DNA from: an uncultured Desulfobacter sp.
Lineage (GTDB): Bacteria > Desulfobacterota > Desulfobacteria > Desulfobacterales > Desulfobacteraceae
Direction: 5' to 3'
Assembly: GCF_963665355.1 (NCBI RefSeq)
Contig: NZ_OY762229.1
Coordinates: 3,100,001-3,164,000, forward strand
Length of the DNA: 64,000 bases
The notes beneath the pieces were generated by a model. That model had not been told where the DNA came from. It did not search any database and saw only the letters and a list, made by a program, of their open reading frames with translations. The position numbers and the translations under genes were made by a program. Below are positions 21,022 through 34,092 of the stretch, in pieces (the stretch's first letter is position 1; each line of letters starts with the position of its first letter).

Positions 21022-22821
21022 ATGAAAAAATTGTTTGTTGTGATGACAGCAGTAATGGCAGTTGCAACTTTTGCCACTGCTTCCTTTGCTGCCAATCAGG
21101 TTCAAATGACCCTGACTTCACCAACCATTTACAAAGCTGGTTGCGAAAAAATCGGTTCAACCACTTATTCTTTTGACGGCAACTCCGTTATTACCGCTGG
21201 TGACTGGTGGTACATGGATCTTCCGGAAAACATCACCCTTTGCAAGAACTATAATTACGTTGTTACAGGTATGTTAGCCGCCACTCCTTCTGTGGCGGTA
21301 AATGCCAGTTCCGATTACACCGCGACTGTATTTAATTCAGTTGGTGGAACTGCTGTTGGTAATGGTATTCAGTCCAGGACTGCTACTATCGGTACCGGCC
21401 CCGTTACTGCCGGTGGCGCCACGCCTACATTTGTTGTAACTGGTAATATGGCTTTCTTGGTAAAAGGAGCCATAAATGGCAGAAGAATCGCCATTTATGC
21501 ACTGGGTGGAAGTTCAAATGACAAAGTTACAGTTAATGCTGACGGTACCTTGGAGCTGAAACTGTTTGACGGAAAGGCTTACAGCGATAGCACAACTACT
21601 ACTGCGACTCACAGCTGTATCATTCTTGATACAGACGGTGACGGCGTTTATGGTGAAAGCAACATCAGCGGTACTACTGACGAAGTAATCGGCGGAGATA
21701 ACACTACTGGTGTCACCGCAGGCGCACCCTATGTTGAAAATACTTTGTGTGCTGATGCAAGCAAGCTTTCAGGACAGTATCTCTATACTTCCTATGCTTC
21801 CAAATCTGACAAATTCACCTTCTCCGGTGACTCCCAGATCGCGCATACCGCTGCTTCTAACACTATTGCCCTTGCCAGCTGCAAAGGCGAAACCACTGAT
21901 ACCATTACTATTACCAGTGGCCAGAGCACCACTTGTGACTTTAACTACAATAATAGCTCCAGCAACGGCGACTACTGCACCACTTCTTTTGCTAACAAGC
22001 TGATGATCGAAGCTTCTTCCGGCGCTTTTGGAGATATCGACGACAAATACTATGTTACTGCAGAGATTACCTCTCCCAGTGATGGTGTATACTTCGGCGG
22101 CTATCCCCAGGTTATCGCTTACACAAGCGACGAAGATGAATGTGAAAGCTACACCACTAGCGTAGGTACTTCCGAGGTGTCTACTGCTACAACAAACTGG
22201 ATTCTTTATGAAGGCTCAGATGTTGCTACTGGTATAGGCGACTCCGACTGCGCCGTTGCTGATGGCAAAAGAGTCGATAAGATTGTTCAGAATAGCGCTA
22301 ACGTCCTGATGGATCTTGACGATTACGACACCCTCTGGATCAAGTTCGCTGACTTCAATTATACCAACGCTTCCGTTGCTGCTGGTGAAGAAGTAACCAT
22401 CGAAGTTACCCTGAATCGGTATCCCTGTGGTGAAATTTTCTCTGACAGCCTGACAATCGGTACTTTTGTTACCTCTTGTGCAAGCTCCAGCTCAACCACT
22501 CTGTACTTCCCCTGGCTGCCGGGTGATGATGCTGCCGGATGGTGGGGCGGTTACGTAATCACCAACGTTGGAACCACCGACGGTGTTGCTGAACTGACTT
22601 ACTCAGACAGCACAGGTGCTCAGGCTACCTACACCACCGGTACTATCGTTGCAGGTTCCCAGTGGGTAAACACTGATGTGACCGCTGAAGACCTGACTGA
22701 CGTTAGCGGCTTTGATATGGCTAACAACTACAGCGTTACTGCAGAATGCGCCTTTGCTGCAAGAGGGTTCGCCTTCACAGGTAACGGAGATGAAGGTACT
22801 GGTTACCTTGCCCAGCAGTAA
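21022..22821 (+). CDS. Probable abundant secreted or surface-layer protein
   Basis: The 599-residue protein has a classic signal peptide (KKLFVVMTAVMAVATFATASFAA) and is rich in Thr, Ser, Gly, Asn and Asp. It has about 12 cysteines that may form disulfides, and a calcium-type loop DTDGDGVYGESN. The gene has a strong Shine-Dalgarno (AGGAGAG). Codon use is biased to GGT, AAC, ATC, GAC and CTG, unlike its neighbours, which suggests very high expression. Its C-terminal module (LYFPWLPGDDAAGWWGGYVI through SQWVNTD) resembles modules of the next gene. A perfect palindrome and a terminator follow. It may be an S-layer-like protein or a major type II secretion substrate; this is inference. Confidence 0.8.
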   Translation: MKKLFVVMTAVMAVATFATASFAANQVQMTLTSPTIYKAGCEKIGSTTYSFDGNSVITAGDWWYMDLPENITLCKNYNYVVTGMLAATPSVAVNASSDYTATVFNSVGGTAVGNGIQSRTATIGTGPVTAGGATPTFVVTGNMAFLVKGAINGRRIAIYALGGSSNDKVTVNADGTLELKLFDGKAYSDSTTTTATHSCIILDTDGDGVYGESNISGTTDEVIGGDNTTGVTAGAPYVENTLCADASKLSGQYLYTSYASKSDKFTFSGDSQIAHTAASNTIALASCKGETTDTITITSGQSTTCDFNYNNSSSNGDYCTTSFANKLMIEASSGAFGDIDDKYYVTAEITSPSDGVYFGGYPQVIAYTSDEDECESYTTSVGTSEVSTATTNWILYEGSDVATGIGDSDCAVADGKRVDKIVQNSANVLMDLDDYDTLWIKFADFNYTNASVAAGEEVTIEVTLNRYPCGEIFSDSLTIGTFVTSCASSSSTTLYFPWLPGDDAAGWWGGYVITNVGTTDGVAELTYSDSTGAQATYTTGTIVAGSQWVNTDVTAEDLTDVSGFDMANNYSVTAECAFAARGFAFTGNGDEGTGYLAQQ

Positions 22822-22842
22822 TCAGTTAATTTGAACAATGAT

Positions 22843-22876
22843 CACATGCACCTGCCGATATCGGCAGGTGCATGTG
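22843..22876. repeat. Perfect 34-bp palindrome after the surface protein gene
   Basis: The arms CACATGCACCTGCCGAT and ATCGGCAGGTGCATGTG are exact complements with no spacer. It starts 21 bp after the surface gene stop and is not followed by a T tract. It could fold into an mRNA 3' stabilising hairpin or cruciform, or be a protein-binding site. It is separate from the intrinsic terminator 35 bp further on. Confidence 0.8.
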
Positions 22877-22910
22877 AATCACACATTTACTCCAGTTTGA
22901 ATTATATATT

Positions 22911-22947
22911 GGGGGGAGCGGGTAATCCGTATCCCCCCTTTTATTTT
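22911..22947 (+). terminator. Intrinsic terminator downstream of surface protein gene
   Basis: GGGGGGA at 22911 pairs with TCCCCCC ending at 22938, with an inner CGG/CCG pairing, and TTTTATTTT follows directly. It lies 27 bp before the next ATG, so it probably limits the downstream gene to read-through and gives the surface protein mRNA its 3' end. Confidence 0.75.
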
Positions 22948-22973
22948 GATAGTGTGCATAATAAGGTGAGTTC

Positions 22974-25409
22974 ATGGGAAAATTTAAAATTTTTTTAGTT
23001 GCCGTATGTGCCCTGGTAATGCTTGTGGCTGTCCCACATCTGAATGCAGAAGAAGTATCCGGAGAGGCTACTGACACCCCCTGGTCAGGATGGTGGTGGC
23101 CGAGTTATCGCGGCGGATTGGTCACTGGGGTGGGATACCGGGGGAGTCCTGCGCCCCTTGAGAAATATGATTTGATTACCTCCAATGTAAAGAGGGGGCC
23201 TGCTTCCAACTATTATCTGACCTATAATTATGATCCTGACGCCGAAACCTGGGTTGGCCTTTGTGATGCCTGGTCTGCCGCAGCAATAATGGAGCCCATA
23301 GATTTTGTTCCGTCAACGGTGAACAATTTACTGTTTCGAATTGGCGATAAAAAAGGTCTCCTCACGCTAGCCTATGAACTGTCATATCAGTCGGATGAAT
23401 ATGAAACTGTGGATTCACCACTTGTGCTGCATAACTGGCTTCTAAATTATATCGGAGAGAAGAGCCTTGCCTTTTATGCTGAAATTGATCCCAGTGATGA
23501 AGCGTGGAATTATCCTGTTTATAAATATCTAATGGATATTGATGATTTCGGCGATGAAGAATATGTAACCTGTACCATCTGGTACGCAGATGATCAGGTG
23601 GCCCCCGACTATTCCGGTACAAAAGAGGTCCAAAAGACCTATTATTACACCTTAGTCAAATCCGGCTCGGAATATGTCAGCTCCTCATGGGATTCCCAGA
23701 ACTCCTATGATCATCCCACCTACGTGCTTCGTCCTGAATCTTACAATATTAAAAATCCGTACCTCGATTATGATACCATTAAGGAAATGGCAGTCTCTTC
23801 TGATGACCTTGCTGAATCGGATCTTCCGGTCTCACTTAATCCCGGTTTCTATAATATGATTCTTCTCAATGAAGATATTTATTTGCTTGGGGAAAAGGAA
23901 GGGGAGCTTATCACTATTAATTTGGAGCGTATCGATGATACGGATGAGACTATACAATATTCCATAACAGACTCTGACGGTACGCTTCTTTCCCAGGGGG
24001 ATCTGGATACCGATGTCAGCCTGACGGTTAATTCCGGTGTCCCTCCCTATGAACTTGTATTCAGCAAGGACAGTTATGACCTTCCTGGCATTTATACCCT
24101 TACCTATGACATTAAAAAAGGTTTTGAATTTGTCAGGGCAAAGGCCCAGAAAGGCTATGGCTGGGGAGGGTATGCCCTTGTAAATGCCTCGGATGAAGAG
24201 GTTTCAAATATTATGATTTCAGGGTATGCTTCGGATGGTTCTCCTGTGGATACCTACCTTGGGCCGTTTACTCTTGGGCCCGGTAAAAAATATGTTATTT
24301 TGAGCGATGATTTTCCATTCCGTAATCAAATGGAGAAGGATGACTTCTATGGAATAAAAATTCATGCCCCGGAAGCCATCAGTATCGTCAATTTGTCCGG
24401 AGAATATGAAGAGCAGATGGCCTCATTTCAAGGGGATGTGTTTGATACCCAGCTTGTTGTTCCGGAAAGTCCATGCACTTCAGACTATAGTGTGATTAAG
24501 TCCTGGGGGGTGTATAATCCCCAGGGTTCAGATATAACCGCGCAGTTTCAGCTTTTTTCAGACAGTGGAGAGGCTGTTGAAGACGTTAGCATTGCGTTAA
24601 ACTCTAAAGAAATAGATCACTTTACCCGATCTTCTTCCCCCTTTGATGATAATACCGCTTCCGGATGGATACTTATAAACGCCAGTGCTGCGGTCTCAGT
24701 GTATGAAGGGTGGGTATCACGATCCAGTGACGCCAATGAGATGATCCCGGGTCTGATTCCGGGGACGGAATTTTATCTTCCCAATCCTGCTTCCGATAGT
24801 ATCTGGTCCACGCAACTAACCCTGATAAATATAGAGGATGAAACCGTTGTGGTATCTGTCCAGCTGCTTTCTTCTTCGTATGATCCGGTGACTGAAGTCA
24901 TTGAGCTTGATTCCCATGCTAAAATAGAAACGGATTTGGCCGCCTTGTTCCCAGGTGTTACCGGTGGTAAACTTTGTGCCGGATTCATCAAAATAGAGGC
25001 AACGGGGGCTATTGCTGGTTATTATACGTATGAAACAACTATTGCCCAAGACATGATTAAGCTTCCGTTGAATGCAGCATCTGACGTGACGACAGCTCTT
25101 TGTCTTCCCCATGTGGCATCTGACAGCATCTGGTGGACCGGTATGGTATTGTGCAACACAGGAGATGCCGTTTCTTCTGTCAGGTTTACACCCTTTGATG
25201 CCCAGGGTAACTCCCTGACCGATGGGGTGGTCAAAAACCTTGAAATAAATGGTAAAAGTAGCTATATGATTCGGGATATGTTTAACGTTGCCATTATACC
25301 GGATATAGCACATATCCGGATAAAGGTGGAACAGGGTAGTCCTGTTTTAGGAACCTACGGGTATGGATCTGCAGATATGCAGATGCTGACCGGGGCCATA
25401 CTTGAGTGA
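22974..25409 (+). CDS. Secreted transglutaminase-elicitor-like protein with beta-module repeats
   Basis: The 811-residue protein has a signal peptide (about 1-25, ending NAE). The N-terminal domain (about 35-280) has WSGWWWPSYRGG, SPAPLEKYD, ETWVGLCDAWSAAAIMEP, LHNWLLNYIG and DEAWNYPVYKY. This resembles the transglutaminase elicitor (M81/TGase elicitor) family, with Cys97, His153 and Asn179 as a possible catalytic triad. Four beta modules follow, each with an aromatic/Pro start and a GxxLxN-like strand (GYGWGGYALVNA, IKSWGVYN, IWSTQLTLINIE, IWWTGMVLCNTG). They match the C-terminal module of the preceding surface protein. The gene starts with AAGGTGAG as ribosome site and is followed 29 bp later by the selenoprotein gene. 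Protein cross-linking at the cell surface is an inferred role. Confidence 0.7.
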   Translation: MGKFKIFLVAVCALVMLVAVPHLNAEEVSGEATDTPWSGWWWPSYRGGLVTGVGYRGSPAPLEKYDLITSNVKRGPASNYYLTYNYDPDAETWVGLCDAWSAAAIMEPIDFVPSTVNNLLFRIGDKKGLLTLAYELSYQSDEYETVDSPLVLHNWLLNYIGEKSLAFYAEIDPSDEAWNYPVYKYLMDIDDFGDEEYVTCTIWYADDQVAPDYSGTKEVQKTYYYTLVKSGSEYVSSSWDSQNSYDHPTYVLRPESYNIKNPYLDYDTIKEMAVSSDDLAESDLPVSLNPGFYNMILLNEDIYLLGEKEGELITINLERIDDTDETIQYSITDSDGTLLSQGDLDTDVSLTVNSGVPPYELVFSKDSYDLPGIYTLTYDIKKGFEFVRAKAQKGYGWGGYALVNASDEEVSNIMISGYASDGSPVDTYLGPFTLGPGKKYVILSDDFPFRNQMEKDDFYGIKIHAPEAISIVNLSGEYEEQMASFQGDVFDTQLVVPESPCTSDYSVIKSWGVYNPQGSDITAQFQLFSDSGEAVEDVSIALNSKEIDHFTRSSSPFDDNTASGWILINASAAVSVYEGWVSRSSDANEMIPGLIPGTEFYLPNPASDSIWSTQLTLINIEDETVVVSVQLLSSSYDPVTEVIELDSHAKIETDLAALFPGVTGGKLCAGFIKIEATGAIAGYYTYETTIAQDMIKLPLNAASDVTTALCLPHVASDSIWWTGMVLCNTGDAVSSVRFTPFDAQGNSLTDGVVKNLEINGKSSYMIRDMFNVAIIPDIAHIRIKVEQGSPVLGTYGYGSADMQMLTGAILE

Positions 25410-25438
25410 ATAAATATGTAAGATGTAAGGAGTTGTTT

Positions 25439-26455
25439 GTGAAACGTTTTTGGACCGGGGTGATAAGCGTTCTATGTCTTTCTCTGTTTTCGGTTGCGGC
25501 AAGTTTTGGCGGCCAGAAATTGACCATTGCTTATACCGGAGATACGGCCGGCTATGTTTTACCCTGTGGTTGAGCGGTTAAAAAAGGAGGCTTGGCCCGT
25601 CGGGCCGGCAAAATTGCAGAATTACGAAAGAGTCGGGAGAATTTTATTCTGGTTGATTGCGGTGATATGTTTCACAACTCAAGGAGTATCCCTCAGATTC
25701 GGGCGGAAACCATCCTTGAGGGGATCAGCCGGATGCATTACGATGCAGTGAACCTGGCCGAGGGTGAACTTGAGCTGGGCGCTTCTTTTCTCAATGAAAA
25801 GCTGGCGTCATATCCAATTGAACTGGTTTCGGCAAATGTGGATATAAAATCCGGGCAAAAGGGGGCTGTGTCTGTAAAGCCATATATTATAAAGGATTTT
25901 GGGACGTTTCGGGTGGCGGTGACAGGAATTGCATCCAAGGTATTGTTTCACGCAGACGCCCGACTTGATAAAAACGTGGAGATCACAGAGCCTCTCTCAT
26001 CTTTGAAACCGATTTTAGCAGAACTGAAGGATAAGGCGGATGTTGTGATTCTTCTATCCCATTTCATGCTGAAAGGAACCCAAAATTTCCTTACCTATAA
26101 TCCTTTACCGGAACTTTCAGTGGCAGTGGCAGGGCATGGACGAAATTTGACAAAAAATCCTGAAAAGGTTGGAGATACTCTGATCGTTCAGAATAGCATG
26201 GGGGGCGAATATCTTTCAGTGCTGACGCTTGAGTTGGACAACAGTTTGAAAATAACGTCCCACGCCGTTGAGAATATCCCGCTGACTGATGAAGTACCTG
26301 AAGATGAATTTCTGCAGAAAAAGCTGGCACAGTTTAAGGCGACTGAATCTAAGGCTCAAGCGGAAAAACATAAGCCCAAGAATGTTTCAAAAGAGCAAAC
26401 AGAGGTTCTCAAGCTGAGTCCCGAGGCCTTTATTAAAAGAATGAATGCCGACTGA
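25439..26455 (+). CDS. Probable selenoprotein: exported 5'-nucleotidase/metallophosphatase-like protein with in-frame TGA (Sec45)
   Basis: GTG 25439 has AAGGAG six bases upstream. It is followed by a signal peptide and TIAYTGDTAGYVLPCG, then TGA (25571-25573), then AVKKGGLARRAGKIAEL in the same frame to 26455 (338 residues counting Sec). In related nucleotidase-like proteins the motif is normally PCGC followed by GGLARRA, so TGA replaces Cys. A hairpin follows the TGA. Metallophosphatase landmarks remain in part (LVDCGDMFHNS, VVILLSHFM, VAVAGHGRN), but the usual first-metal His and the GNHE motif are changed (TGDTAG, NLAEGELELG), so nucleotidase activity is doubtful. The protein probably acts in the periplasm or outside the cell, with a C-G-Sec redox motif. 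A nonsense mutation or a restart at TTG 25592 is the alternative. Confidence 0.8.
25571..25617 (+). promoter_or_regulatory. Candidate bacterial SECIS element
   Basis: Directly after the TGA, GCGGTT (25574-25579) can pair with AATTGC (25612-25617). Inside, TTGGCCC (25592-25598) pairs with GGGCCGG (25602-25608), leaving a GTC loop about 25 nt past the TGA. Two T.G wobbles lie at the base of the upper stem. Position, size and a GU in the apical loop agree with SelB-dependent bacterial SECIS hairpins. Confidence 0.65.
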
Positions 26456-26497
26456 ATAAAAGACGGCGCCCCATTAGAGAAAATCTTCAGAGAAGAA

Positions 26498-26545
26498 AAA
26501 ATCCATCTAAAGAAATCTGTTGACAACTTTCTTTAGATGGATTTT
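26498..26545. terminator. Bidirectional terminator between convergent genes
   Basis: An exact 18-bp stem (AAAATCCATCTAAAGAAA and its complement ending GATGGATTTT) has a 12-nt loop. The A-rich left side and T-rich right side let it work on both strands. It lies between the selenoprotein gene end (26455) and the lipoprotein gene end (26580, minus strand). Confidence 0.85.
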
Positions 26546-26579
26546 CGTATAGAAGAGCTAATTGGAGAAAAAGTCTGTG

Positions 26580-27026
26580 CTATAAAGGCTTTTTATTCTT
26601 CATGGCGGTTTTGTTCAGAACCCATCCGTTATTCGGCTCAAACAGCCAAAGTTCTTGAATGACTGGCTTGAATTTATACCCGGCCTTAAAAATGGTGAAT
26701 CTCATCATAACGGTTGCAGTGGGCATAGCGCTGTTATCATTGGAAATTGTTATATTATCAATGGTGAAGTCAAGTACCTCTTTAAGTCCGCCTTTAACTA
26801 TGAATTTGGTTTTTGATTCTGTCTTCTGATACGCGGCATCAGTCATTTCGAAAACAGTAGCCCAGTCTTTTTTTACCCGTGCATCCCAAAGTGCGGTCAC
26901 TCGTTGTGATAAAGATGTTTTGTCAGGCATGTGGCGAGTGGAAAGTCCGATGGTGCTGCATCCAATGAATAGCTGGGCAGTGATGTAAAGGCTGAAGATA
27001 GAAAGTGTAGTCAGTTTAAATTTCAT
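26580..27026 (-). CDS. Small lipoprotein of unknown function
   Basis: The 148-residue protein has a signal sequence ending in LFIGC (lipobox, about Cys23). A compact domain follows with ALWDARVKKDWATVFEMTD and a C-terminal ELWLFEPNNGWVLN. That pattern (a helix with W..AR...DW, then beta strands ending in W) is like NTF2-like folds, a structural impression only. It overlaps the upstream TPR gene by 4 bp (ATGA), so the two are translated together and may act together in the envelope. Confidence 0.7.
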   Translation of the reverse strand: MKFKLTTLSIFSLYITAQLFIGCSTIGLSTRHMPDKTSLSQRVTALWDARVKKDWATVFEMTDAAYQKTESKTKFIVKGGLKEVLDFTIDNITISNDNSAMPTATVMMRFTIFKAGYKFKPVIQELWLFEPNNGWVLNKTAMKNKKPL

Positions 27027-27991
27027 TTTTCATCTTTTTTACTTTTAAGTTTTTCAATACTTCGAATGAGGGCATCCGCAGGTTTGTATTCTAATTTTTG
27101 TGCCTGCAGAGCATATTCAAGAGCCTTGTCGTAATTTTTAATATTCCGGTAAGCCACGGAGATATTGACAAGGGCGCCACCTTTGTTCGGGGGGTTGAGG
27201 CCTATGCCTTTTTCAAAATAAGGAATAGCCTGCTCCGGGGTCTTTTGATACATTTTAATTGCACCCATATTAATGTATGCCTCTGCATAACCGGGATTGA
27301 CTTCGATGGCTTTATTGAACAAGTCAAATGCGTCGTCGAGGTTGTGCTGTTTTAAGTACACGACACCTAGGTTGTAATAGGCCTTTGAAAATTTGGGATC
27401 AAGTCCGATAGCGACTTTATACTCTTCTATGGCTTCGTCAATCAAGGTTATTTCTTCATAAAGACCTGCCAGTGAAAAATGGACAGGTGCAAGTTTGCCG
27501 TTTATTTTTAAAGCATTTTTACAGTGAACAATGGCCTGTTCCAGATTTCCCTGCTCTTTGTACAGGTTACTCATGTTAAATTCAGCCCAATACAGATTCG
27601 GCTGAATTTCAAGAATCTTCCGGTACTCTTCAATTCCTTTATCAATCATGTCCATAGAAGCGTAAACATTGGCCAGGTTAAAATGAATAACAAGATTCTG
27701 GGGATTTAATTCTGACGCCTTTTGGAATTGCTCTGCAGCACCGAGCCATTGTTGCTTTTGGGTCAGAAAAACACCCATTTTGGTTCTGAGCACGGCTTCA
27801 AGGTCGGGCGTCTGTTTCCAGGCTTGTTCGTATTGCTGTTTTGCTTCTTCTATTTGACTTTGTTTCAGGTATTCATCCCCTTTATTAACGAATACACTGG
27901 CGTCTTCGGCAGCACATATACCAGTGCATGTCAGAATTAGAGTAGCGGTTAAAAAAAGATATGTTATTATTGAAATCGCTTTTTTTCGCAT
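27023..27991 (-). CDS. Exported TPR-repeat protein
   Basis: The roughly 322-residue protein has a signal peptide (ISIITYLFLTATLILTCTGI) and about seven TPR units, with landmarks such as VIHFNLANVYASMDMIDKGI, YWAEFNMSNLYKEQGNLEQA, AYYNLGVVYLKQHNLDDAF and AYINMGAIKMYQKTPEQA. TPRs form a scaffold for protein contacts, here in the periplasm. The frame is open 15 codons upstream, but ATG 27991 has GGAGG nearby and begins the signal peptide. It is coupled to the lipoprotein gene that follows it. Confidence 0.85.
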   Translation of the reverse strand: MRKKAISIITYLFLTATLILTCTGICAAEDASVFVNKGDEYLKQSQIEEAKQQYEQAWKQTPDLEAVLRTKMGVFLTQKQQWLGAAEQFQKASELNPQNLVIHFNLANVYASMDMIDKGIEEYRKILEIQPNLYWAEFNMSNLYKEQGNLEQAIVHCKNALKINGKLAPVHFSLAGLYEEITLIDEAIEEYKVAIGLDPKFSKAYYNLGVVYLKQHNLDDAFDLFNKAIEVNPGYAEAYINMGAIKMYQKTPEQAIPYFEKGIGLNPPNKGGALVNISVAYRNIKNYDKALEYALQAQKLEYKPADALIRSIEKLKSKKDEK

Positions 27992-28123
27992 TAAATTTTG
28001 TCCTCCAGGTAGCAAATGGAATAGTTTGATAAACAATTAATAAAAATAAAGAATTTTCGTTGCAATTGCAAGAAAAAAAATATATGAAAACCTTTATTTC
28101 ACAAGGATCTTACGGAGGATTAA

Positions 28124-29050
28124 ATGAAGCTGAAAATAATTTTGGTCACCTTATTTTTTTCAATAACATGTCTGGCCTTTACCTGTTCTGGCGGTGAAAA
28201 AAACAACGACCAGAAGCTGGATAAAAAAGCGGGGAAAAGCGCCCAGAGCAGTAAGGACGAAACGGGTGCTTCTATCAGGGATAGAAAATCGGGGTCACTG
28301 ACGCCTGAGGAGCAGTTAAGCGCTTTAAAAAAAATGGCGGATGACGGAAAGCCTGATGCCATTTATCAGTTGGGATTAATGTATGAAACTGGCACAGATC
28401 TGGTCAATCAGGATCTCAAAAAAGCGGCAAAACTTTATGCTAAAGCGACAGAAAAGGGTTCCACAATGGCCAGGAATAAATTGGCCGTGATCTATTATCT
28501 CGGCTTGGCAGGATATAAAAAAAATCAACTAAAAGCCAAAGAACTGTTTGAAATTTCAGTTAATGAAAACAGCCCGGATGCTATGTTCATGCTAGGCAAG
28601 ATGTATCTTGACGGAGCTGAAGGCATTGAACAAGATTTTGAGCAAGGTACCAAGCTAATGAATGCTGCCGCTGTTTCCGGCAACGAATTTGCAATGGATG
28701 AACTTGGTGTGATGTATTTTAATGGTACCCAGATTTTAGAAAAAGATCGTGGAAAAGCATTTAAGTGGTATCATCGGGCAGCAAGAAAAGGGTATGCGCC
28801 AGCTATGGTACATTTAGGTTCAATGTACTATTATGGTACACCTCCTCTGGATAAGGACGAAAAAAAGGGGATTGAGTGGGTTGAAAAAGCTTTCAAAAAA
28901 GGGGATCAAGCGGCCTATAACCTACTTGTTCAGTGGGGGGGCGGAAATGAGAACGAAAAGCAAGTTTCCTTTGAATTGAAAAAGGGGGGGAATATCAATA
29001 CGGATAAAAAATCCAACTCACCGGAAAATGATCAGAATAAAGAGAAATAG
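28124..29050 (+). CDS. Exported Sel1-repeat protein
   Basis: This is a 308-residue protein. Its N-terminal hydrophobic segment ends in FTCSGG, possibly a poor lipobox, and a Lys/Ser/Glu-rich linker follows. About five Sel1-like repeats (PDAIYQLGLMYETG, ARNKLAVIYYLGL, PDAMFMLGKMYLDG, FAMDELGVMYFNG, APAMVHLGSMYYYG) come next, then a charged low-complexity C-terminus. Sel1 repeats mediate protein contacts. It has a strong GGAGG site and is divergent from the TPR gene with a 132-bp shared promoter region. The partner is unknown. Confidence 0.85.
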   Translation: MKLKIILVTLFFSITCLAFTCSGGEKNNDQKLDKKAGKSAQSSKDETGASIRDRKSGSLTPEEQLSALKKMADDGKPDAIYQLGLMYETGTDLVNQDLKKAAKLYAKATEKGSTMARNKLAVIYYLGLAGYKKNQLKAKELFEISVNENSPDAMFMLGKMYLDGAEGIEQDFEQGTKLMNAAAVSGNEFAMDELGVMYFNGTQILEKDRGKAFKWYHRAARKGYAPAMVHLGSMYYYGTPPLDKDEKKGIEWVEKAFKKGDQAAYNLLVQWGGGNENEKQVSFELKKGGNINTDKKSNSPENDQNKEK

Positions 29051-29071
29051 GATGAATACACAGGCGGTATT

Positions 29072-29890
29072 ATGCACGATGTTTTAAATCCAGTTGAAAT
29101 CTTAAGGCATCTGTGGGGCCTTAGAAATTTATGCATGAAGCTTTCCAGAAAAGCGATCCTGGTCAGGTACAGGGGGTCGCTTTTAGGGTTTTTATGGGCG
29201 TTTGTGCAGCCTCTAATGATGCTGGCTGTATATACGTTTGTATTTTCCGTTATCTTTGAGGCCAAATGGGGGCAGGATATGGATCAGGGCCGTCTCTCCT
29301 TTGCTCTGGCTCTGTTCGTGGGAATTTTAACCTTTAATATCATTGGAGATACGGTAAATGCCTCCCCACAGCTCATTCTGGGGCATGCTAATTTTGTTAA
29401 AAAGGTGGTTTTCCCTCTTGAGGTGTTGCCTCTGGTCAAGCTGATTGAATCTATAGTCTTTTCTTCGCTGGGGCTTGTGGTGCTTCTGGCTGCGCAGTTG
29501 ATCCATGACCATCGTCTGAGCTGGACATTAATTTTTCTGCCCATAGTTTGGTTGCCGGTTGGCCTTTTTGCCCTGGGATGGAGTTATGTGATTGCTTCTC
29601 TTGGTGTATTTATCAGAGATATCGGATCCATAACCGGTGTGGCGGTGAGCATGCTTTTTTTTTTAAGCCCCATATTTTATCCTTTGAGCGCTGTGCCGGA
29701 AAGCCTGAAGATATACTGCCGGCTTAATCCCATTGCCGTGTTTGTCCAGGATGCCAGAAGAGTGGTGTTGTGGGGGCAGATGCCGGATTGGCCGTGGCTC
29801 TGCGGATATTTTTTTATCTCTCTTGCCACGCTGGTTGTGGGATTTGCCTGGTTCATGAAATCCAAAAAGGCGTTTGCGGATGTCCTTTAG
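29072..29890 (+). CDS. wzm: ABC-2 type polysaccharide export permease (Wzm-like)
   Basis: The 272-residue inner-membrane protein has six membrane helices. The N-terminal amphipathic motif KLSRKAILVRYRGSLLGFLW is typical of the O-antigen/teichoic-acid export permease family (RxRYRxSxLGxLW). It should form the channel that exports a lipid-linked polysaccharide with the Wzt-like ATPase at 32776. The two genes are usually adjacent, but here about 2.9 kb with a radical SAM gene and an acyltransferase gene lies between them. It starts 21 bp after the Sel1 gene. Confidence 0.9.
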   Translation: MHDVLNPVEILRHLWGLRNLCMKLSRKAILVRYRGSLLGFLWAFVQPLMMLAVYTFVFSVIFEAKWGQDMDQGRLSFALALFVGILTFNIIGDTVNASPQLILGHANFVKKVVFPLEVLPLVKLIESIVFSSLGLVVLLAAQLIHDHRLSWTLIFLPIVWLPVGLFALGWSYVIASLGVFIRDIGSITGVAVSMLFFLSPIFYPLSAVPESLKIYCRLNPIAVFVQDARRVVLWGQMPDWPWLCGYFFISLATLVVGFAWFMKSKKAFADVL

Positions 29891-30055
29891 TGCTGATTCC
29901 CAACGATGTCTCCTGGTATATGATGCAAGTAAAACAGATCAGAACCCAATGGAACATCTCTTCCCATTTATGCGCCAGGAGTATTATAATTGTAATCTTT
30001 TTTCATTTCTGTTGTGGCCATATAAACTAAGAATATGAAATTCAAGAGGATATAT

Positions 30056-30087
30056 GGCGAATACAGTTGGAAATCAACGAATTCGCC
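30056..30087. repeat. Inverted repeat upstream of the radical SAM gene
   Basis: GGCGAAT (30056) pairs with ATTCGCC (30081), and an inner GTTG pairs with CAAC around a GAAAT loop. No T tract follows. It sits 29 bp before the radical SAM start in a 226-bp gap that holds no other gene signal. It could be a leader hairpin or an operator. Confidence 0.5.
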
Positions 30088-30116
30088 GATAAAGCCAGTT
30101 CAGTGAGGAGGCATGG

Positions 30117-31334
30117 ATGAAAATATTATTTATTTACACTGATGTGGATACAAACTCAAACAGAAGGTATCCTTACAGTATTGGAGCGCTTTCCGGGTTT
30201 CTTAAAAAACATGGCTACGAAACCCGGTTGCTGTATATAAAGGCAGATGTTTCAGAGGAAGATCTGTTGTACATGGTCTGGCGGGAAAATGCGGATTTGA
30301 TCGCTTTTTCTACAGTCACTTTCCAATGGGAACTTACCAGGCAGATCGCCCGTTCGATAAAGAAAAAATTTGATGTACCGATTATCTGCGGTGGTGTGCA
30401 TGCGACCTTCATGCCTGAAGAGGTTATTTCCGAGCCCAGTATCAATATGATTTGTATCGGAGAGGGTGAATATGTAATGCTGGATCTTCTTGAGCGAATG
30501 GAAAACAACGGAGACCTGTCCACTATTCAGAATATATGGATCAAAAACGAATCCGGTAAAATCTTTCGAAACGAGGTTCGGCCGTTGCTCCGGGATCTGG
30601 ACAGCCTGCCGTTTCCGGACCGTGAAATAGTTCCATATGCAGAATTCCTCAATGAAAGCAGATCCGAGCCGGCCTTTATGACTTCACGAGGATGCCCATT
30701 TAACTGCACCTATTGTTCGAACAGCGCCTACAAGGTTCTTTATAAGGGGAAAGGTACCTATGTCCGCCAGCGCAGCCCTGAAAATGTAATTAAGGAAATT
30801 GCGGAATTGCGATCGAACTATTCCTTCGATTCCTTAAATTTTTATGATGAAATATTCGGTATCGATTTAAACTGGTTGACAAAATTCTGTGGTATGTACA
30901 AATCTGAGTTTGGACTGCCCTTTGGTATATTTGTCCGGGCTGAGGCCATGGACCGAGACCGACTTCATCTGATGCGGGATGCGGGGCTCACGCTGATATA
31001 CATTGGTGTCGAATCCGGTAACGACGATATCCGCCGGAACGTGATGAGGCGAAAAGTCTCCAAGGATCGAATTATTAAGACCTGCCGTGATGCCCAGGCC
31101 GAAGGGATACAGGTGTGGACGCTGAACATGATCGGCGTACCTGGTGAAACTCCTGATACGATAAAAGAGACGATGGAGCTAAATCGGATCATCGATCCGA
31201 GTTATGCCAGCGTCGCCATTTATCAACCGTTACCGGGAACAGAATTGTTCAATATGTGTGTGGAAAATAACTATATCAAAAAAGCCGCCATGAAGAGCCT
31301 CTACTCGGACACTGTTCTGGCGCAAATATTATGA
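30117..31334 (+). CDS. B12-binding radical SAM protein
   Basis: The 405-residue enzyme has an N-terminal cobalamin-binding-like Rossmann domain (about 1-140: YSIGALSGFLKKHGYET, FSTVTFQWELTRQIARSIKK, IICGGVHATFMPEEV). A radical SAM domain follows with SRGCPFNCTYCSN (Cys193, 197, 200) and GVESGNDDIRRNVMRRKVS. Such enzymes perform methyl transfer or other radical chemistry on lipids, sugars or antibiotics. It lies in a polysaccharide export cluster. The C-terminus ends abruptly in LAQIL, and the expected tail continues in the -1 frame (see 31331), so the gene may be frameshifted. Confidence 0.87.
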   Translation: MKILFIYTDVDTNSNRRYPYSIGALSGFLKKHGYETRLLYIKADVSEEDLLYMVWRENADLIAFSTVTFQWELTRQIARSIKKKFDVPIICGGVHATFMPEEVISEPSINMICIGEGEYVMLDLLERMENNGDLSTIQNIWIKNESGKIFRNEVRPLLRDLDSLPFPDREIVPYAEFLNESRSEPAFMTSRGCPFNCTYCSNSAYKVLYKGKGTYVRQRSPENVIKEIAELRSNYSFDSLNFYDEIFGIDLNWLTKFCGMYKSEFGLPFGIFVRAEAMDRDRLHLMRDAGLTLIYIGVESGNDDIRRNVMRRKVSKDRIIKTCRDAQAEGIQVWTLNMIGVPGETPDTIKETMELNRIIDPSYASVAIYQPLPGTELFNMCVENNYIKKAAMKSLYSDTVLAQIL

Positions 31335-31456
31335 GAATGCCGACGATTTCCCATGAGGAACTGCTCGAAGGGTATAGGGCTTTTATGGATTTGTCGGCCC
31401 GAATCAAGCATGATCATGAAAAAAGGGGCGATCGGATTTTATTGAATGATTTATAA
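31331..31456 (+). pseudogene. Displaced C-terminal tail of the radical SAM protein (-1 frame)
   Basis: Forty-one codons starting at the ATG that overlaps the upstream stop (TATGA) read MRMPTISHEELLEGYRAF followed by a charged helix. PTISHEEL-type segments are common near the C-terminus of B12-radical SAM proteins, so this is probably the tail cut off by a -1 shift between 31317 and 31330. It could also be a separate tiny coupled gene. No obvious slippery heptamer lies at the junction. Confidence 0.5.
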
Positions 31457-31517
31457 TTAACTTAAAGTATCTTCTTTTTTTGGGGGGGGGCTTATATTCA
31501 CCATGCCAGTGATATAT

Positions 31518-32444
31518 TCACCCTCTCAGGCTGAATCGGATGGGAAACTGTTTTTTCTTTTGTTCCATTAATTTAAGTCCATATCCTTTATGCACTTCTT
31601 CCATTTCTGCATGAAGAAGATCAATTTTTTTTTGATAGGATTGATGAATCTCTTTGATTTCTGTGTTTAGTCTCTTTATTTCTTCTTGATAGCCTTGATG
31701 GATCTGAATAATTTCTTTTTCTAAGCGGATTTTTTCATGGTTCGTTCCGGTTTGATTTTCAACTTTTTCTTTTGATATTGTTTGCTGACCTGCGGTTCGT
31801 TCCTGGGAAGCTGAGTTTTCAGTATCGTGAATAATTTCTTTTTCTAAGCGGATTTTTTCAGCAAGACCTGCGGTTCGTTCCTGGGATGAGTTTTCAGTAC
31901 AAGGATACTTACCTGGTCTGTATTTTATGACTTTGGATGGATTGCCAACTGCGATTGCCATTGGGGGTATATCTGAAGTAACCACTGATCCGGCCCCGAC
32001 GATAGCGCCTTCTCCAATGGTTATTCCTTGAAGGATGACGCAGGAGGCGCCAATCCATGCATTTTTTTTTATGGTGATTTTACCGTATGAAAGTCCCTGC
32101 TGCTGGATATATAGATCGGGATCGGAATAATTATGCCCTGCGGAAAGGATGTTGCAGTTTGGGCCGATCAATACATAGTCTTCTATTACAAGACCTCCCT
32201 CTGCCGAAAGATAGCCTCCTGAATTGATCATAACATGATCTCCGATGACCATGTCTGATTCCGCATTTGCCTGCATGTCGCCAAAGACAAACCGGTTTCG
32301 TGAATATATGGTGCAATCATTACCGATAACCATACCCCGGCTGATTGTTTCAGGCCGGTTGAACAGTACGACCTCAACGCTTGGGTCGATAACGGTATTA
32401 TTCCCGATCTTATCGATCAGTTCTATTACAGAACCACTTTCCAT
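31518..32444 (-). CDS. Hexapeptide-repeat acyltransferase with C-terminal coiled coil
   Basis: Residues 1-175 form a left-handed beta-helix O-acetyltransferase-like domain (VIGDHVMINSGGYLSAEGG, ILSAGHNYSDPD with the likely catalytic His, KKNAWIGASCVILQGITIG, AIVGAGSVVTSDIPPMAIA). From about 176 the protein is a charged linker and coiled coil (EKIRLEKEII twice, QIHQGYQEEIKRLNTEIKEI) built from in-frame duplications. The total of 308 is much longer than the usual 180-220. It is convergent with the radical SAM gene. It likely acetylates the surface glycan, while the coiled coil may mediate assembly with other glycan enzymes. Confidence 0.87.
   Translation of the reverse strand: MESGSVIELIDKIGNNTVIDPSVEVVLFNRPETISRGMVIGNDCTIYSRNRFVFGDMQANAESDMVIGDHVMINSGGYLSAEGGLVIEDYVLIGPNCNILSAGHNYSDPDLYIQQQGLSYGKITIKKNAWIGASCVILQGITIGEGAIVGAGSVVTSDIPPMAIAVGNPSKVIKYRPGKYPCTENSSQERTAGLAEKIRLEKEIIHDTENSASQERTAGQQTISKEKVENQTGTNHEKIRLEKEIIQIHQGYQEEIKRLNTEIKEIHQSYQKKIDLLHAEMEEVHKGYGLKLMEQKKKQFPIRFSLRG
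31705..31886. repeat. Internal direct repeats in the acyltransferase gene
   Basis: A 33-bp unit at 31705-31737 recurs exactly at 31828-31860 (offset 123 bp). A 22-bp unit at 31787-31808 recurs exactly at 31865-31886 (offset 78 bp). Both offsets are multiples of three, so the repeats duplicate linker and coiled-coil residues in frame. Confidence 0.85.
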
Positions 32445-32775
32445 AAAAATCTTTCCTTTAGGCGTTCAAAAATATATAATTTTTATTGCATTTGCAAGGC
32501 AAAAATTATATGTAACCCGAGGCTTTTTCCTTGGTATTATGGTTGATTGGGGATTCCGTAACACGGTGAACCATAACAGCTTTGGAAGCGGCAAAGTGTA
32601 TGCAGCCCCGGCTGCATTTTTTGTTTTTGAATGCCATCAATTGGTTGGTTTTGTATAATATTAAAATCCGTTGTGGATTTTGGGACGCAGTTTCAACAGG
32701 TTCAACTCTCGTGAAGTTAACAAAGTTTCATAGATAGTTATCTGAGGAGTTACTATTAAAGAAGGCTCGCAAATT
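32445..32775. other. Intergenic region with divergent promoters and an AT-rich inverted repeat
   Basis: This 331-bp gap separates the acyltransferase gene (minus strand) from the Wzt-like gene (plus strand). ATATAATTTTT at 32474 is matched by AAAAATTATAT at 32501-32511, 30 bp upstream of the acyltransferase start, and could be an operator or leader hairpin. A terminator-like hairpin lies at 32601. No protein-like frame was found. Confidence 0.5.
32601..32628 (+). terminator. Orphan terminator-like hairpin
   Basis: TGCAGCC and GGCTGCA flank a 2-nt spacer and are followed by TTTTTTGTTTTT. It would stop plus-strand transcription, yet no plus-strand gene ends here; the nearest upstream one ends at 31456. 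It may terminate a small RNA or mark a deleted gene. Confidence 0.55.
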
Positions 32776-34092
32776 ATGGGGATTCCCATTCAAATCAGTC
32801 ATGTTTCCAAAATTTATAAGCTTTATGATGATCCTTCGGGACGGTTGAAAGAGGCTGTTTTCAGGGGAAAAAAGCGGCACCGGGAATTTCCTGCTTTGAA
32901 GGATATCTCATTTTCGGTTGGAAAAGGCGAAACCATCGGGGTCATCGGCAGAAACGGGTCGGGAAAGAGTACGCTTCTGCAGATTATTGCCTCCATTGTA
33001 ACGCCTACCTCAGGGAGGATTGACATTAATGGGCGGATATCCGCGCTTCTGGAACTGGGTTCGGGGTTTGACCCTGAATTTACAGGTCGGGAAAATGTTT
33101 ATCTTAACGGCTCTATTCTGGGCCTTTCCCAGAAAGAAATAGAAGATCGGTTTGATCAGATTGAAAGGTTCGCCGACATTGGCCGTTTTATGGACCAGCC
33201 TGTCAAGAACTATTCCAGCGGGATGTATGTCCGCCTGGCCTTTGCCGTTGCCGTAAATGTTAATCCGGACATCCTGCTGGTTGACGAGGCCCTGGCCGTT
33301 GGAGATGTATATTTTCAGCATCGGTGCATGACCAAAATCCGTGAATTCCAGAAACAGGGGAAAACCATTTTTTTTGTCACCCACGATACGGGGGCCATTA
33401 TAAAATTGTGTACTAAGGCCATGCTGCTTGAGAGAGGAGAAATGGTTTTATTTGGAAAGCCGGATGATGTTGTCCAGGAATATTACAGGATACTCTGGAA
33501 TGGGGAAGATACCGGAGGGCTGGTCGGCCCTGAAGATAAAGAGTTTCAAAAGCCGGAAAACGCAACTCCTCCTGAGCAGGGAAATGTTCTTGAAATTAAG
33601 GACCTTGAGGAATTTGAAAAGATTGCCCGTTGGGACAAGCGGTTTGGCAATGATAAGGCCCGAATTACAGGGTTTCTTCTCACGGATAATAAAGGCAGAA
33701 GACAGGATACATTTAAGGCCGGTATGGAAATTCATCTTTCCATAGAGATTACTGCCAATGCAGATATTGAGATGCCTTTAGCCGGATTCATTATCAAGGA
33801 TCTGCTGGGTAATGAGTTGATCAAGACCAATTCTGATACGTCCGGGACTGTATTGAAACCCTGTCAAAAGGGAGATATCCTACAGATCAGTTTTATTTTT
33901 CTTATCCCCATGCTCAGGACAGGAAGCTATTCTGTTTCAGCCGGGTTTGGTCAAGGTACTCTGGAAAACCATGTTGCATACGACTGGCTGGATAATTTTA
34001 CCGTATTTTCTCTGGACAGCCCCGAGCATTCCTATGGCATGCTTGATATACCGGTAAGAACAATGGTAAACACCATAAAGGGAAATTTTTAA
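32776..34092 (+). CDS. wzt: Polysaccharide export ABC ATPase with C-terminal cargo-binding domain (Wzt-like)
   Basis: The 438-residue protein has an ABC ATPase domain (Walker A GRNGSGKST near 57, Q-loop region, signature YSSGM, Walker B ILLVDEALAVGD). A beta-sandwich C-terminal domain (about 285-430: ARITGFLLTDNKGRRQDTF, GTLENHVAYDWLDNFTVF) is typical of Wzt proteins that read the non-reducing end of the finished O-polysaccharide. It should partner the Wzm-like permease at 29072. The Wzt C-domain suggests a capped or terminally modified glycan, consistent with the methyltransferase modules nearby. A terminator follows. Confidence 0.93.
   Translation: MGIPIQISHVSKIYKLYDDPSGRLKEAVFRGKKRHREFPALKDISFSVGKGETIGVIGRNGSGKSTLLQIIASIVTPTSGRIDINGRISALLELGSGFDPEFTGRENVYLNGSILGLSQKEIEDRFDQIERFADIGRFMDQPVKNYSSGMYVRLAFAVAVNVNPDILLVDEALAVGDVYFQHRCMTKIREFQKQGKTIFFVTHDTGAIIKLCTKAMLLERGEMVLFGKPDDVVQEYYRILWNGEDTGGLVGPEDKEFQKPENATPPEQGNVLEIKDLEEFEKIARWDKRFGNDKARITGFLLTDNKGRRQDTFKAGMEIHLSIEITANADIEMPLAGFIIKDLLGNELIKTNSDTSGTVLKPCQKGDILQISFIFLIPMLRTGSYSVSAGFGQGTLENHVAYDWLDNFTVFSLDSPEHSYGMLDIPVRTMVNTIKGNF

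Follow-up and report, generated by a model that had tools for sequence, protein, structure and literature searches.

Comparative analysis of a 64,000-nucleotide stretch of DNA (the window) from an uncultured Desulfobacter sp., whose genome spans 5.64 Mb with a tool-estimated completeness of 100%, revealed that a gene at positions 25439-26455, divided by an in-frame TGA, encodes what by its sequence is a divergent short form of the known UshA-like selenoprotein family. The TGA is almost certainly decoded as selenocysteine (Sec), judging from the comparisons described below. Our best reading overall is that the product is probably a periplasmic selenol redox protein built on a dead phosphoesterase scaffold. 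The gene and its elements are as follows.

25427-25432, plus strand: Shine-Dalgarno-like AAGGAG, 6 nucleotides 5′ of the GTG at 25439
25439-26455, plus strand: UshA-like selenoprotein gene, assigned by its homologs; 338 aa with Sec45, GTG start, stop TGA at 26453-26455
25439-25504, plus strand: region coding for a probable signal peptide, MKRFWTGVISVLCLSLFSVAAS, recognized by eye
25571-25573, plus strand: TGA as the putative codon of selenocysteine 45 (PCG-U); Cys in the same-genome paralog, and Cys or TGA in 53 of 53 family members
25590-25609, plus strand: hairpin resembling a bacterial SECIS element, with loop GUC at 25599-25601, within the codons of GGLARRAG

The sequence-only reading had put this protein forward as a new selenoprotein. 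However, UshA-like proteins of COG0737 with a CxU motif have been in print since at least 2008 and are represented by NCBIfam models, so the window gene belongs to a selenoprotein family already known, within which its short branch is new. The family is tabulated in PMC2398784 (2008), PMC9312934 (2022), and PMC13188914 (2026), the last of which also lists a UshA-like family 2 with CxxU. In their accessible portions, all three papers give UshA-like selenoproteins without a function, and PMC2398784 places them apart from those families whose redox motif is based on Cys. Neither metal-site loss nor cytochrome fusion was found for UshA-like selenoproteins in the accessible portions of the open-licence literature.

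Among family models, the best for the window protein was NF041198 (UshA_like_PCGU), with 149.2 bits, below the cut-off of 275. NF049981 (UshA_like_Sel_2) gave 61.8 bits, below its cut-off of 140; matches to nucleotidase models were weak, and so was that to the SoxB model TIGR04486 (67.0 bits, cut-off 550). The window protein shares with NF041198 the N-terminal domain, PCGU followed by GGLAR, the export signal, and the exchange of Sec with Cys; however, that model has 519 positions and the four full-length relatives above the cut-off carry Cytochrome_C554, whereas the window protein lacks CxxCH. NF049981 has a related N-terminal region and a Sec before the GG motif, but its motif is CxxU rather than CxU. 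By sequence, the UshA-like family matches the N-terminal domain of solved 5′-nucleotidases (PDB 2z1a, 1ush, 4h2i, and others). Across this domain the window protein is related to UshA, 5′-nucleotidase, and CD73, but unlike them it has replacements at the H of DxH, the N and H of GNH, and the last H/Q, lacks the C-terminal nucleotidase domain, and has a Sec. Its relation to the thiosulfohydrolase SoxB (TIGR04486; PDB 2wdc, 4uwq) is weak, and the residues checked against canonical relatives are replaced.

Searches with the window protein at E 1e-20 matched 7 of 116 relatives' genomes, its own included, and detected no UshA-like gene in any of the other 18 genomes from the genus. A single-protein search of genome contigs yielded 12 loci, which were distant relatives of canonical type; no close homolog was among them. 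With an eight-row alignment as query and a threshold of E 1e-25, matches came from 77 of the 389 order genomes and 174 of the 395 phylum genomes, canonical nucleotidases included. We extracted 62 proteins around the best matches listed: 53 have Sec or Cys at the column of TGA 25571 (40 TGA, 13 Cys), and the other nine, which have neither, keep the canonical residue at each metal position checked. These 53 family members represent the loci for the best matches listed in the order and phylum searches together with three earlier ones, and are a sample rather than a full census.

Heme-binding motifs divide the family. CxxCH occurs in 19 of the 58 rows of our tree (from which we left out L078, near-identical to L077, and the canonical L067, L070, and L071), in every case past residue 320; 18 rows have four such motifs, and the one with two is cut by a contig end. 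Cytochrome_C554 (PF13435) was detected in all four heme forms tested, and the same four full-length proteins exceeded the cut-off of NF041198, with 348-525 bits. Each of the 12 heme-less members tested, including the window protein, fell below it (139-253 bits, the highest being L090, scored as 345 of its 381 aa). When two heme forms were trimmed to 345 aa, with the heme part removed, they still reached 301 and 327 bits; since both values exceed 275, length alone does not explain the shortfall of the window protein. We regard a C-terminal region with four CxxCH as a trait of NF041198 on the basis of the members examined here, not of the NCBI text. The window protein, with no CxxCH, falls in a heme-less clade of 27 rows (support 100/97) comprising 18 Sec and 9 Cys forms of 317-497 aa. 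Six further heme-less rows fall in the heme-bearing part of the tree, on which at least three heme changes are required. A loosely defined C-terminal LKLSPEEF-like pattern is present in 18 of the 27 clade rows and none of 35 others, and a different, stricter C-terminal pattern is present in 13 of the 27.

In UshA numbering, we take the metal and catalytic residues to be D41, H43, D84, N116, H117, D120, H217, H252, and H/Q254. Among the 53 family members from the matches listed, H43 is kept in three and N116, H117, D120, and H/Q254 in one each, while D41, D84, H217, and H252 are partly kept (33, 24, 28, and 29, respectively). The canonical rows have 14 of 14 at each residue checked and 12 of 14 at D120, one gene being counted twice among the 14 (L027 and L074). 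The window protein keeps Asp, Asp, His, and His, so that one metal could still bind, and has H43, N116, H117, D120, and H/Q254 replaced. Given that other residues stand at most of the family's metal and catalytic positions, nucleotidase activity is unlikely, and we rejected an ordinary nucleotidase as the likely function. The initial description of the protein as nucleotidase-like is therefore apt for its fold and not for its activity, and the residue comparison makes it highly likely that it is not a functional dinuclear phosphoesterase.

The cysteine upstream of the Sec/Cys position is less constant than that position itself. No Cys is present within four residues upstream in 17 of the 53 members from the matches listed, and 10 of these 17 are Sec forms. 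A simple dithiol mechanism through C-x-U is thereby weakened, and the Sec/Cys, not a pair, emerges as the constant element. For the same reason a CxU/CxxU dithiol motif is less plausible as the required unit. Among the short forms, L048 and L054 have one more residue between Cys and Sec (PCASU and PCYTU), and no Cys precedes the Sec in L056, L058, L059, L061, L063, and L065.

In the mechanism we propose, UGA45 would be read as selenocysteine under the direction of a hairpin right after the UGA, yielding an exported protein of 338 residues. The scaffold would be the N-terminal metallophosphoesterase domain of UshA and the 5′-nucleotidases minus several metal and catalytic residues, with a selenol (a thiol in the Cys forms) placed in the first active-site loop. 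This single selenol would perform the chemistry of what we infer to be a periplasmic redox protein. Long relatives would pass electrons to or accept them from their own four-heme cytochrome domain, and members of the short branch would depend on a separate partner, possibly the exported, Cys-containing products of adjacent genes. Comparison of genes demonstrates the Sec codon and its exchange with Cys, and likewise shows that metal residues have been lost and that relatives are fused to a cytochrome domain. The hemes fused to relatives suggest electron transfer; as the window protein has no heme motif, this argument applies to it only through kinship, and a redox role for the window protein itself appears reasonably likely.

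Alternatively, the protein may be a remodelled hydrolase or sulfur-transfer enzyme, for example a SoxB-like one, in which Sec acts as a metal ligand or as a nucleophile by the leftover Asp and His residues. The window protein does retain the four old ligand positions, SoxB belongs to the models scoring next after the best UshA-like one (the 67.0 bits given above), and its genome is that of a sulfate reducer, as indicated by a dsrA match of 602 bits. However, the family does not conserve these ligand positions (D41 in 33, D84 in 24, H217 in 28, and H252 in 29 of 53, among the matches listed), and the heme fusion in relatives favors electron transfer, leaving such an enzyme a rather unlikely reading.

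From the GTG at 25439, 44 codons, the last three encoding PCG, lead to TGA 25571-25573, after which the frame continues AVKKGGLARRA and remains open for 293 codons up to TGA 26453-26455. The probability of 293 open codons, calculated from base composition, is about 1e-8. The ordinary ORF list contains only a 287-aa ORF starting at TTG 25592. Elsewhere in the same genome, a paralog (C2:3772163-3773155) is 58% identical and has PCGC where the window gene has PCG-TGA. Over 292 codons past the TGA, the two genes differ at 106, 52, and 175 first, second, and third codon positions (fractions of 0.36, 0.18, and 0.60), and residue identity is 58.9%; this codon-position skew and identity indicate selection on the protein sequence encoded beyond the TGA. 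On re-reading of the sequence and in this comparison, the ribosome site, the 44 codons to PCG, the 293 in-frame codons beyond the TGA, and the conservation of the frame 3′ of it were all as the sequence-only reading had described them.

That reading had further held that the TGA replaces exactly a Cys, and had named Cys homologs and selA, selB, selC, and selD as the places to look; both lines of evidence agree with it. In addition to the PCGC of the paralog, the relatives have Cys (13 of 53) or TGA (40 of 53) at this column among the matches listed. At least 10 Sec/Cys changes are required on the family tree, and one genome (G078) has three copies, with PCGU, PCGC, and PCGU. The invariant columns of a 52-row alignment are C45, G50, G75, and N133. 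All four genes of the machinery are present in the genome of the window, each above its curated cut-off: selA (606.8 bits), selB (350.6 bits), selC, the tRNA-Sec gene (73 bits, with UCA in the anticodon loop), and selD (368.1 bits; C2:4764662-4765585, L043). The selD gene has an in-frame TGA of its own, in KAAGUAAK and followed by a hairpin, which is an internal sign that UGA is decoded in this genome; SelD is here very probably itself a selenoprotein.

If the TGA were a true stop, the locus would consist of a 44-residue fragment and the internally started 287-aa ORF, or of a decayed gene. An ordinary ORF caller does yield the ORF from TTG 25592, and the genome does contain a true remnant of the family, a third UshA-like gene (L003, C2:3410137-3410463) with a TAA inside the match. 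Nevertheless, selection past the TGA, the recurrence of TGA at this column in 40 of 53 members from the matches listed, and the complete Sec machinery make a true stop very improbable, and on the first two grounds we rejected a nonsense mutation or pseudogene. A sequencing error, or a suppressor inserting another amino acid, is more improbable still, because TGA recurs at the column in unrelated assemblies and the genome's own SelD also has an in-frame TGA. A mechanical filter returned five other frames with in-frame TGA in the window; on comparison with the ORF list, these appear to be ordinary starts of genes or a pair of adjacent genes.

The hairpin has a GUC loop of 3 nt with G first, located 25 nt after the UGA, and eight stem pairs with one bulged base. 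In its accessible portions, PMC13188914 gives for bacterial SECIS elements an apical loop of 3-9 nt with G in the first two positions, an upper stem of 4-16 bp, and a loop 16-37 nt after the UGA, and the window hairpin lies within all of these limits. The GU-containing loop and the distance invoked in the sequence-only reading thus fit published constraints, but its hairpin argument proved weak for the window sequence by itself. Compared with dinucleotide shuffles of four segments, the hairpin showed no excess over chance (z -1.54 to +0.11); a synonymous-codon null gave p = 0.12; and Rfam over 25400-25750 returned no SECIS match and one chance match on the minus strand. Since these single-sequence nulls were not beaten, support for the hairpin comes only from comparison across genes. 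Under the synonymous-codon null, 40 TGA genes had a mean z of -0.95, with p < 0.05 singly in 6 of 40, and 13 Cys genes had a mean z of -0.33, with p < 0.05 in 0 of 13. Two hairpin registers occur in the family, in the codons of ARRA (as in the window gene) or of GGLA, both defined post hoc from folds already inspected. In a gene set drawn in many cases from fragmented assemblies, at least 5 of 6 pairs in either register were present in 38 of 40 TGA genes (all except L081 and L087) versus 2 of 13 Cys genes (Fisher p 7e-8, uncorrected for kinship). The Cys paralog in the same genome has 2 of 6 pairs broken. In eight 15-base segments picked for fitting the ARRA register, two third codon positions form the outer pair, which varies among GC, GU, AU, and UA.

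We also compared the surroundings of the gene, where the following neighbours were identified.

21022-22821, plus strand: exported protein of 599 aa with 12 Cys, counted between first Met and stop; conserved neighbour
22974-25409, plus strand: TG811, exported transglutaminase-like protein of 811 aa (PF16683, E 4e-11); homologs near the short UshA-like gene
26580-27026, minus strand: probable lipoprotein of 148 aa (lipobox by eye); conserved neighbour
27023-28036, minus strand: TPR-repeat protein; conserved neighbour
28124-29050, plus strand: Sel1-repeat protein; conserved neighbour
29072-29890, plus strand: ABC-2 permease of polysaccharide-export type; conserved neighbour
32776-34092, plus strand: ABC transporter ATPase with a Wzt C-terminal domain; conserved neighbour

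The 599-aa protein had no match in Pfam or NCBIfam. Across 33 neighbourhoods, several of them ended early by contig ends, a TG811 homolog is present in 15 and at least one of the seven neighbours in 19; none is present in the other 14, including those of the Cys paralog and of L134-L136, which lie outside the short clade. The locus of exported-protein, TPR, Sel1, ABC-2, and Wzt genes, at 21022-34092 in the window, is found again next to short UshA-like genes in several of the order's families. At E 1e-40, TG811 was detected in 25 of the 389 order genomes. A TGA-bearing or short-frame UshA-like match was found in 19 of these 25 versus 12 of the 364 others (Fisher p 2e-19), in a hand count of search tables that is uncorrected for kinship, draws on matches only part of which were extracted, and includes five frames of 439-525 aa. 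The two genes lie within about 4 kb of each other in 16 of the 19 co-occurring genomes, and six TG811 genomes have no such UshA-like match at 1e-25. TG811 had no match in the 16 other genus genomes listed. At the thresholds used, 22974-25409 and 25439-26455 are patchy in the genus, through transfer or loss. At L105:3544-4206, a 220-aa exported-looking protein is encoded between the 599-aa and 811-aa homologs; ORFs of similar size, compared by size alone, occupy this place in L110, L114, L115, and L116, and the window has about 150 bases there.

The 599-aa protein and TG811 contain 12 and 7 Cys, respectively. That the window protein serves these co-encoded exported proteins is a guess from the neighbourhood, and a doubtful one. 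Equally tentative is a broader scenario in which a metallophosphoesterase fold, giving up its metal site for a single working Sec, became a selenol redox family, with one branch wired to a tetraheme domain and the other, heme-free and periplasmic, serving a locus dedicated to the production and export of Cys-containing surface proteins and acting on thiols of TG811 and the 599-aa protein during their assembly.

Our findings give work on UshA-like selenoproteins a testable starting point, namely the dead metal site, the single constant Sec/Cys, and the cytochrome fusion of relatives. The short branch is missed by present database models, and ordinary gene callers would cut its genes at the TGA. 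The conserved neighbourhood is the place to seek the partner of this branch.
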